Assembly: GCA_003660555.1 (NCBI GenBank)
Contig: QMUK01000012.1
Location: 1 to 19,604, forward strand
From: Thermococci archaeon
GTDB lineage: Archaea; Hadarchaeota; B88-G9
DNA: 19,604 nucleotides
Reading direction: 5' to 3'
The notes beneath the pieces are model-generated. The model did not search any database. It was not told the DNA's origin and saw only the letters and a list, made by a program, of their open reading frames with translations. Each line of letters opens with the position of its first letter. Within the stretch, counting starts at the first letter, position 1. Shown one piece after another: positions 16,837-19,604 of the stretch. A program made the position numbers and the translations under genes.

Positions 16837-16861
16837 CGTACCTAAGTATCACAACCACCGA

Positions 16862-16873
16862 AAAATATTTATT
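16862..16873. promoter_or_regulatory. Shared TATA core between membrane protein and exported PHP protein
   Basis: AAAATATTTATT contains the 8-base palindrome AAATATTT and works as a TBP-site in either direction. Starts 26 bases away fall at about 16893 (+) and 16841 (-), within 10 bases of both start codons. It is followed on the plus strand by a run of eight G (16878-16885). Confidence 0.55.
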
Positions 16874-16901
16874 CGTTGGGGGGGGCAAATGGTGCTCGGA
16901 G

Positions 16902-19604
16902 ATGAGGAGGGGCATAACGTCTCTGCTGTTGTTGTTATCCTTACTATTAAGCGCCACAGATTTTGCCGAAGGAAAAGGATGTAACATTGAGTGCATGCCA
17001 GAGAATACCTGCCCAACTCTGAACTTCAATCCAGATGAGATAGAGCTCGAATTCGACCAATTCAAGTGTTCCGAGATTCAAGGGATTGTATTATGCACTT
17101 CTACACTCACTTGGGTCAAAGAGGGAAGGAATCCCATACTGCACGCTTGGGTCGTGAACACCAGGGAGGACAAGGAGGCGAATCTCCAGAGAATAGTCAT
17201 AGAGGATGGACTCAGCAACTATGGGGTCATAGAACTTCAAGTCTTGAGATATTTAAAGCCAGTTGGAAAAGAGCTCAAGGAACTGGAGTACATCACGAGG
17301 ATGATCTTGGAAGAACAAGAGAAGCTCCAAAAGGGTGAGATAAGCCTGGAGGAATACCAGGAGAACGTCCAGAGAATAAGGGAGTGCTACTCAGAGAGGA
17401 TTGGAGAGCTTAAAACTAAAGTAGAGGAAGGTAGATATAACACTGAGATTCTAGAGTTCTCTCCGAGGGAATGGCCCAATCCAGGAGAGGACCTCTTAGT
17501 CAGGGTAGTAACTGAATTCGAATTGGATGGGAAAGAATTGAAATTGGTCAAGGAGAGGAGAATCAGGGTAGCTTCAGACTTCCATGAGATTTGGTTCGAG
17601 GAGAATCATGGGAGAGGGAAGGAAGAAGTAAAGCTACAACAGGCCCAAGGCTTCTGGGCAAGTGGAGATACCCACTTGCATTCAGTCATAACTTGCGATT
17701 GGTACGAGGTCGGATTCACCTTCGACCACATAGAACAAGCTTACAGGGGGAACTTGGACTTCACTTTCATCACGGATCATTCCTATGACGTGGAAGACCA
17801 TAGTTGCGTAGGGGACGGTGAAGGTGACAAATGCACTGGAGACATAGGTTGCTTAGTTCCTCCTTTTATTTGCTGTAGCTCAGATTGTTTCATAGATAGC
17901 AGTATTCTATGTACACATCAAAGTACTTTCTATAGAATGGCTTCAGAAGACCCAATAGACGGAATAGACAACGATTTAGACGGTTTAGTAGACGAAGACC
18001 CGGAGGACATATTAGTCAACGGAAAAGACATAGTGGACAGAGACGGAGACGTCTACGAATTCCAGATGCTCAAGCAGGAGTGTGCCCTCAGGTCTGATTC
18101 AGAGTTCCTGATGATAAGGGGAGAGGAGATATCTGCATACGACGAGGGGTGTGGTAAAGGAGCTCAGCACTACTTGGCTTTGGGAATAAACGGAGTTGTG
18201 GACAGTAAATCTGGTCTCCTCTGTCCAGACATCTATGCAGAGAGGCCCACAGCAGAGGAGGTCATACAATTAGTTCAAGAGCTAGGAGGATTGGGATTCG
18301 TAGCTCACCCATATGAAACTACTGAGTGGTGGTTACCCTTCTTCGACTGGGATTGGGGATACAAAGGCCCAAGTCTGGCCATTTCAAACGGAGTAGAAGC
18401 TCTCAATAGTAAATTCGAGTGGAACATAGAGTATAAAGGAGTCAAAGAATTCTGGGAGAAGTTTACAAGGGAAAGAGGATACAGATGGACTTTACTGGGA
18501 GGATCAGATGCTCACGCTTGTAATTATTTAAAGATGGTCTTAGGGTCATGCCCAGATTGGGAATCCTTAGGTACCTCCTTCACGGTCTGCTACTTAGAAG
18601 AGCTCACGGAAGAGCAAGTGCTCTCTGCCCTGAGGGAGGGAAGGTGCTTCGCAACCAATGGCCCATTTCTAGCGATTTGGGGCTATGACGAAGGTTCTCG
18701 CTCTCCTGATTGGAAGCTAATGAGCCATGAAACCCTGTACGATTACGACAACTCCTTGGAAATAAGGGTTAGATATGAATCTGATTTCGCTTTGGGAGAA
18801 GTCAAATACCTCAAAATCCACTGGGGAATAATAGGAACTAACGTTCACGGCACGAGTACCTACTACCCAGACCAAGAGGGCTGGGATCCATATTCCGACT
18901 CAGTGGAAATAGAAATCCCTTGGAATTGGAGTTCAATAGTCCCTCCAGGAAGTCCTCCTGAAACTACAGTTTACCTATACGCAGAAATAGTAACTGAAGA
19001 AGATCCACCGAGCCAAATAGGGGAAGCATACATTGCAGTAACTAACATGCTCTTCTTCCAAAAGGGAATTTGCTGCCTGGAGTATCCCAAGAGACTCAGT
19101 TCCTCCTCCAAACCTGAGACCTCTTGCCAAGACGGAGAAGACGCGGAATTCCAATTCCCAATAACGAACTGCGGAAACACTCAAGTCAAAGTAGATTTCT
19201 CCATAAGCAAACCGCCTAACTGGGACATATGGATGAATATCCAGGACACAGACGGAGATGGAAAGCCAGACGTTTATTTGGATCCTGGAGAGACCACAAC
19301 CCTCTTTGTAAGGGTTTCTCCACCGTTCAGTGCACTCCCAAGCAGGACTTTGATTGGAATGGGATTAGAGGTACAGGACGGCATTTGTCTGTATGACTCT
19401 ACCCTAGAAGTTTCCGTAGAGGAAGTGAAGGGAATTCTGCTCTCCCATACTTATCCAGGGAGATTATACGAAGTCCCCCTCTCCGAGGAGATGACCCAGC
19501 CCCATCACCTCAAGCTAGTGAATTGCGGTAACGTGGAGGAGGAAATAGCCCTCAGATTCCCTCCTGAGCCAGGGTTAATTGCCTGGATAACTGACCCCTT
19601 CGGC
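16902..19604 (+). CDS. Exported PHP-domain metallohydrolase, CehA/McbA-like (runs off window)
   Basis: Open for 901 codons to the window end; the C-terminus is missing. A signal peptide (residues 1-22, MRRGITSLLLLLSLLLSA...) exports it. An N-terminal domain contains a helical pair with EKLQKGEISLEEYQENVQRI near 148-167. The PHP metal site is complete: GDTHLHS (His258, His260), FITDHSYD (Asp292, His293), FVAHPYE (His469) and GGSDAHA (Asp536, His538). Between the second and third motifs lie a Cys-rich loop (about 302-342) and an acidic DGIDNDLDGLVDE (353-365) like the MopE-type metal-binding motif. After the enzyme come Ig-like NEW3/CARDB-type units marked by TNCGN and VNCGN, with a Ca-loop DTDGDGKPD (782-790). 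Family members hydrolyse phosphoesters or carbamates; the substrate here is unknown. The start is ATG, with GGTG seven bases before it. Confidence 0.88.
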   Translation, partial: MRRGITSLLLLLSLLLSATDFAEGKGCNIECMPENTCPTLNFNPDEIELEFDQFKCSEIQGIVLCTSTLTWVKEGRNPILHAWVVNTREDKEANLQRIVIEDGLSNYGVIELQVLRYLKPVGKELKELEYITRMILEEQEKLQKGEISLEEYQENVQRIRECYSERIGELKTKVEEGRYNTEILEFSPREWPNPGEDLLVRVVTEFELDGKELKLVKERRIRVASDFHEIWFEENHGRGKEEVKLQQAQGFWASGDTHLHSVITCDWYEVGFTFDHIEQAYRGNLDFTFITDHSYDVEDHSCVGDGEGDKCTGDIGCLVPPFICCSSDCFIDSSILCTHQSTFYRMASEDPIDGIDNDLDGLVDEDPEDILVNGKDIVDRDGDVYEFQMLKQECALRSDSEFLMIRGEEISAYDEGCGKGAQHYLALGINGVVDSKSGLLCPDIYAERPTAEEVIQLVQELGGLGFVAHPYETTEWWLPFFDWDWGYKGPSLAISNGVEALNSKFEWNIEYKGVKEFWEKFTRERGYRWTLLGGSDAHACNYLKMVLGSCPDWESLGTSFTVCYLEELTEEQVLSALREGRCFATNGPFLAIWGYDEGSRSPDWKLMSHETLYDYDNSLEIRVRYESDFALGEVKYLKIHWGIIGTNVHGTSTYYPDQEGWDPYSDSVEIEIPWNWSSIVPPGSPPETTVYLYAEIVTEEDPPSQIGEAYIAVTNMLFFQKGICCLEYPKRLSSSSKPETSCQDGEDAEFQFPITNCGNTQVKVDFSISKPPNWDIWMNIQDTDGDGKPDVYLDPGETTTLFVRVSPPFSALPSRTLIGMGLEVQDGICLYDSTLEVSVEEVKGILLSHTYPGRLYEVPLSEEMTQPHHLKLVNCGNVEEEIALRFPPEPGLIAWITDPFG

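Follow-up and report, generated by a model that had tools for sequence, protein, structure and literature searches.

A probable exported CehA/McbA-like PHP hydrolase of an archaeon with a cysteine-rich and calcium-type insertion in its catalytic domain

CehA (Rhizobium sp. AC100) and McbA (Pseudomonas sp. C5pp) define the closest described family of PHP enzymes, and McbA is reported to be periplasmic (PMC8292978). Sb-PDE of Sphingobium sp. TCM1 is a secreted PHP phosphodiesterase inhibited by thiol reagents (PMC5460133). Among solved structures, the PHP-like phosphoesterase BVU_3505 (3e38_A) lies closest to the protein considered here. From an unrelated enzyme class, Thermococcus subtilisin illustrates how a calcium-binding insertion stabilises a secreted archaeal enzyme (PMC3123361).

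We analysed a window of 19,604 nucleotides, the whole of contig QMUK01000012.1 (C12), at whose 3′ end a gene encodes a PHP protein. This protein probably represents a surface-retained, exported CehA/McbA-like enzyme of phosphoesterase type, whose insertion would fold on disulfides and calcium. It shares with CehA and McbA the PHP motifs and a sequence match (E 1e-20), and with McbA its predicted export; in contrast to that family, it scores below the family cut-off, carries a Cys/Ca-type insertion of approximately 80 residues and ends in an Ig cassette. Judged by description, Sb-PDE likewise combines a PHP domain with a signal peptide, and has two cysteines and thiol-reagent inhibition, but its mature enzyme of 413 residues lacks both the insertion and the cassette. 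For residues 248–595, 3e38_A gives the best structural match, although the identity is only 16% and neither insertion nor cassette is present. Thermococcus subtilisin is comparable as an exported archaeal enzyme whose catalytic domain carries an insertion with a Dx[DN]xDG motif; its fold is unrelated and it has no Cys-rich loop, so the likeness is one of analogy only. The enzyme type is known and widespread; what is out of the ordinary is the insertion and the shared tail.

The gene, its host and the PHP catalytic domain

The open reading frame extends from an ATG at 16902 to the last base, 19604, with 901 codons and no stop. Since the contig stops exactly there, the gene is truncated at its 3′ end. 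The features upstream of and within the catalytic region, all on the + strand, are as follows.

16860..16874, +: A/T-rich TATA-like element gaaaaatatttattc, about 30–40 bases 5′ of the start codon, read from the sequence; putative archaeal promoter element
16902..16970, +: signal peptide, residues 1–23, MRRGITSLLLLLSLLLSATDFAE (sequence and hydropathy, no SignalP run)
16971..17636, +: N-terminal region, residues 24–245, Cys-containing, with a helical hairpin (122–175) and a beta part (sequence, AlphaFold model)
17643..18686, +: CehA/McbA-like PHP catalytic domain, residues 248–595 (NCBIfam NF038032; VIA-align to 3e38_A)
17664..17684, +: PHP motif I, GDTHLHS, residues 255–261 (H258, H260; alignment of relatives, as for the following five features)
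17772..17783, +: PHP motif II, TDHS, residues 291–294 (H293)
18117..18134, +: PHP motif III, RGEEIS (GEE 407–409, E409)
18303..18311, +: AHP, residues 468–470 (H469)
18504..18515, +: PHP motif IV, SDAH, residues 535–538 (D536, H538)
18588..18647, +: Cys563 … Cys582 pair

The source genome, which is archaeal, comprises 1.3 Mb on 150 contigs. Its 16S rRNA matches the archaeal SSU model with 1562 bits, the best model of its clan, which bears out the assignment of the host to the archaea in the initial annotation. The G+C content of rRNA correlates with growth temperature, and the value of 64.7% for the 16S, against 44.4% for the window, suggests a thermophile; the host is thus probably heat-loving. 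Neighbouring genes in the window (creatininase-like, lactate permease-like, TrpRS, NfeD, M17 aminopeptidase, ThiI, DJ-1, SppA and DUF134) were checked for functional context; they are housekeeping genes, none of them tied to a substrate. No matches were found among viral contigs and plasmids, and the genomes searched contained no relatives closer than phylum level.

The N-terminus, MRRGITSLLLLLSLLLSATDFAEG, reads by sequence and hydropathy as a Sec signal peptide, in agreement with the initial annotation, and the protein is predicted to be exported. The region that follows (residues 24–245) matches no Pfam family over the cut-off. All four PHP metal-site motifs had been described as intact, and they are: the HxH, H, E/H and DxH elements are present, and the seven expected metal ligands (H258, H260, H293, E409, H469, D536 and H538) are invariant across the aligned relatives. 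NF038032 (CehA/McbA) matches residues 397–596 with E 1.3e-20 and 74.1 bits, covering model positions 54–227 only, since the insertion interrupts the match; the domain alone scores 77.4 bits (E ~1e-21). The CehA/McbA affinity proposed at the outset is therefore clear in the E-value of 1e-20, but the score stays short of the curated cut-off of 80 bits, and we class the protein as CehA/McbA-like without assigning it to the family. Ten of ten aligned relatives also match this model. In the Pfam search of the whole protein, PF02811 (PHP) is not among the matches, and PHP_C (PF13263) appears with E 0.013 only.

An AlphaFold model built from 15 aligned sequences has a mean pLDDT of 54. VIA-align of this model ranks 3e38_A first over residues 248–595 (Z 15.4, 3.7 Å, 215 residues), with Ig-like entries next at 10.8; a top rank despite the weak model supports the PHP core fold. 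The 3e38 sequence profile also matches (E 7e-4). Foldseek on the full model returned Ig-like domains only, the PHP match coming from VIA-align, and when the whole protein was searched against PDB sequences, the only matches were chance ones to C-type lectins.

Strong matches to a profile of the catalytic region (at least 185 bits) occur in 7 of 394 archaeal genomes, source genome included, while the weaker matches are short PHP proteins, mostly of 210–330 aa. Scanning 84,980 species genomes yielded 17 loci. The top one, from Ca. Syntrophoarchaeum, aligns to query residues 13–352 with E 9e-15; the others belong to Methanophagales, Methanomicrobia, Nanoarchaeota and bacteria. The archaeal relatives that were read have hydrophobic, signal-peptide-like N-termini. 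Exported proteins of the CehA-like PHP kind thus recur across several archaeal lineages, in a patchy distribution. We compared the query with a set comprising Ca. Syntrophoarchaeum L075, Methanophagales L087 and L088, Methanomicrobia L084, Nanoarchaeota L076, and G093, G174, G209, G360 and G081. They share the signal peptide (in those whose start was read), the motif series GDTHxHS…TDHS…GEE…AHP…SDAH at 24–32% identity and, in part, a conserved Cys pair; they differ in lacking the insertion between motifs II and III (29–38 residues in those measured) and in carrying other C-terminal modules. Export had been regarded as unusual in the initial annotation, given that most PHP enzymes are cytoplasmic. 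The export itself is supported, but it is not unusual within the CehA/McbA branch, which includes periplasmic McbA, secreted Sb-PDE and these archaeal relatives. A subtilase-like domain is present on two exported PHP proteins, G093 and, from the same phylum, G019. In exported archaeal proteins at L070 2829–6872 (− strand) and L072 1802–5842 (− strand), a single chain combines a subtilase-like domain, as read from sequence, with a CehA-like PHP domain.

Of the ten relatives, six have Cys563 and Cys582 together and four have neither, in a count not adjusted for kinship. Their joint gain or loss suggests a disulfide, and thus an oxidising place of work.

The conservation of the ligands bears on whether the domain is still an enzyme. 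It might instead have lost catalysis and persist as a metal-stabilised binding or adhesion module, with the insertion, the Ig cassette and the Cys-rich parts as the working surface. About 60% of the protein is non-catalytic, an insertion inside the catalytic domain could cover the site, and an FG-GAP protein of the same genome also bears the cassette. The FG-GAP fold is often used for binding. A dead enzyme would be expected to show some loss of ligands, but all seven are retained, both here and in nine relatives with an identity of only ~25%, and we consider loss of catalysis improbable.

The insertion between motifs II and III

The catalytic hydrolase that we favour is set apart from its relatives by the segment between motifs II and III (+ strand).

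17790..18056, +: insertion not in relatives, residues ~297–385 (motif gap comparison, alignment)
17805..17912, +: Cys-rich loop, residues 302–337, spacing C8C5C6CC3C7C (sequence)
17958..17996, +: acidic DGIDNDLDGLVDE, residues 353–365, including the Dx[DN]xDG calcium motif (DNDLDG; sequence and pattern scan)

The gap between motifs II and III spans 116 residues, compared with 29–38 in eight exported archaeal relatives, which establishes an insertion of ~80 residues as real; none of the eight measured has it. The order given in the initial annotation, a Cys-rich loop followed by an acidic repeat, holds. The loop contains seven cysteines (302, 311, 317, 324, 325, 329 and 337). The spacing of the last six (311–337), C-5-C-6-CC-3-C-7-C, fits the knottin (inhibitor cystine knot) consensus. 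The literature search found nothing directly relevant on knottins in archaea, and the loop has no PDB sequence match at E 10.

The acidic segment contains the calcium motif Dx[DN]xDG as defined previously (PMC3123361). A DNA pattern for DGxDNDxDG was found in 38 of 297 archaeal genomes, once in the source genome, and its reversed control in none, indicating a genuine, recurrent motif instead of a chance one. One of the 30 proteins checked has PHP motifs alongside it, namely the protein described here. The domain combination had been called unusual, a view strengthened by this count and by the absence of the insertion from every relative examined, among which it is unique. A separate archaeal protein (L147) carries tandem DEDPIDGADNDGDGYVDEDPAGIDNDWDGLIDEDP, close in look to the acidic motif of the insertion.

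No known Ca- or Cu-binding Pfam domain was found in the insertion. In particular, the PF11617-like motif suggested at first was not recovered: this MopE-type family has no match at E 1 with the whole protein or at E 10 with the insertion. That suggestion, together with the acidic motif, is what speaks for a reading in which a transition metal is captured by the Cys-rich loop and acidic motif, much as MopE binds copper, and passed on to the PHP site. In MopE, a secreted copper protein, the copper site consists of two histidines and a kynurenine and not of an acidic repeat (PMC3423442), whereas the Cys cluster of the insertion has one histidine only nearby (H339). With PF11617 also missing, metal delivery is very improbable.

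The position of the insertion between motifs II and III and its Dx[DN]xDG motif (PMC3123361) would also accommodate a regulatory switch, in which calcium on DGIDNDLDGLVDE gates the active site and thereby confines activity to the outside of the cell. The initial annotation had proposed modelling the protein to see whether the insertions cover the active site. The core fold was obtained, but residues 297–374 have pLDDT <50, so the model does not give their placement and lends the switch no confidence. Moreover, a structural role for the calcium sites is the more economical interpretation in a thermophile, where extra calcium and disulfides make sense. We therefore rate the switch, too, as rather unlikely, and retain a stabilising role as the preferred account.

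Within the gene, GC3 is lowest at the insertion (0.38; gene mean 0.50). A recent foreign origin was considered on this basis and not pressed, since GC3 is equally low elsewhere: residues 620–720 also have 0.38, and the genes of the window range over 0.39–0.53.

The C-terminal Ig cassette and the contig end

The C-terminal part of the protein (+ strand) recurs elsewhere in the genome.

19062..19604, +: C-terminal cassette, residues 721 on, with one complete Ig-like domain and the start of a second; cut at the contig end (genome search, models)
19245..19271, +: DTDGDGKPD loop, residues 782–790, in the first cassette Ig domain; DTDGDG (782–787) fits Dx[DN]xDG (sequence)
L011 2..1270, +: cassette gene copy
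L012 5943..8981, −: cassette gene copy
L013 1190..3832, +: cassette gene copy
L014 1558..4815, −: cassette gene copy
L010 1..516, +: cassette end on contig C131, possible continuation of the PHP gene or a second copy of it

Residues 721–901 recur in four other genes, C9 (Peptidase_C25), C16 (FG-GAP), C34 and C109. The DTDGDGKPD loop and Ig units noted initially are thus present, but they are not specific to the enzyme, being part of a cassette on four other proteins. The further suggestion of a NEW3 domain fell away, the Pfam match being insignificant (E 0.23). When modelled, the C109 copy (pLDDT 78.7) forms a pair of beta-sandwich domains with a disordered tail, and Foldseek on this model returns Ig-like proteins. 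A cassette profile run against 394 archaeal genomes, source included, matches one other genome, weakly (E 3e-5).

In the complete copies, the terminal sequence is D-[NHE]-x-(Y)PP[PT], followed by K-x-I-x-[KN]-K and a basic end with a net charge of +4 to +8. No membrane helix was found in these tails (19-residue hydropathy at most 0.78). Compared with an archaeosortase/PGF-CTERM-type tripartite tag, they have the motif and the basic tail but no hydrophobic helix, and thus do not make up such a tag. A D-x-x-PPP DNA pattern hits exactly the four complete-tail copies; its reversed control gave seven chance matches in the same genome, making this test a weak one. The cassette may serve in surface retention. 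A broader proposal is that the two Ig domains with D-[NHE]-x-PPP, spacer and K-x-I-x-KK form an undescribed, helix-less archaeal surface-sorting or anchoring signal on at least five exported proteins, including the only C25 (gingipain/PorU-type) peptidase, and that the PHP enzyme in addition carries a cystine-knot and Ca-loop module as an insertable cap. In this full form the proposal is doubtful. The cassette, spread across the genome, may be the lead of greater interest.

Several observations concern the proteins around the cassette. The genome's only C25 (gingipain-type) peptidase carries it (L013 1190–3832, + strand), and this peptidase matches the type IX secretion sortase PorU weakly, with 66.8 bits against a cut-off of 420. 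In C34 (L014 1558–4815, − strand), the first cassette Ig domain is interrupted by a TIM-barrel-like domain (residues ~456–850). On C109, a separate gene downstream of the cassette gene (L011 2916–3992, + strand) encodes a protein 44% identical to this domain, with a weak Glyco_hydro_31 match.

Contig C131 overlaps the truncated end. Its bases 1–228 (L010 1–228) match the last 228 bases of the window (19377–19604) except at 12 positions; all 12 differences are transitions, one of which creates a TAG. Beyond the overlap, C131 runs on through the cassette tail to a stop codon. It may derive from another strain and continue the PHP gene, or represent a second copy that is broken. Beside the cassette gene on C131, a gene (L010 513–1469, + strand) encodes a protein that has a hydrophobic segment and is rich in cysteines at regular intervals, in repeats like CxEYxxVC.

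Proposed mechanism and meaning

As judged from the signal peptide, the PHP protein would be exported across the membrane via Sec. Once outside, its PHP barrel would bind two or three divalent metals via its seven conserved ligands and hydrolyse a phosphoester or related ester bond of an external molecule. The bond cleaved would, with moderate confidence, be a phosphodiester or phosphomonoester; a carboxyl or carbamate ester appears unlikely, and some other bond equally so. Exported, thiol-reagent-sensitive Sb-PDE offers a precedent, by analogy, for an exported PHP phosphodiesterase. The insertion is envisaged as a loop held by disulfides, with a Dx[DN]xDG calcium site after it, most likely forming a stabilising, substrate-shaping cap that would fold only outside the cell, with calcium and an oxidising environment. 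The two-Ig cassette and basic tail would hold the protein at the cell surface, as they may do for at least four other proteins.

If so, a PHP catalytic domain can accept a disulfide- and calcium-type module. The comparison places the little-studied exported archaeal PHP hydrolases beside secreted phosphodiesterases of known activity, which makes it testable whether these hydrolases scavenge phosphate or nucleotides from outside the cell. The shared Ig cassette with its conserved basic tail is likewise a testable candidate for surface retention in archaea without a known tag.
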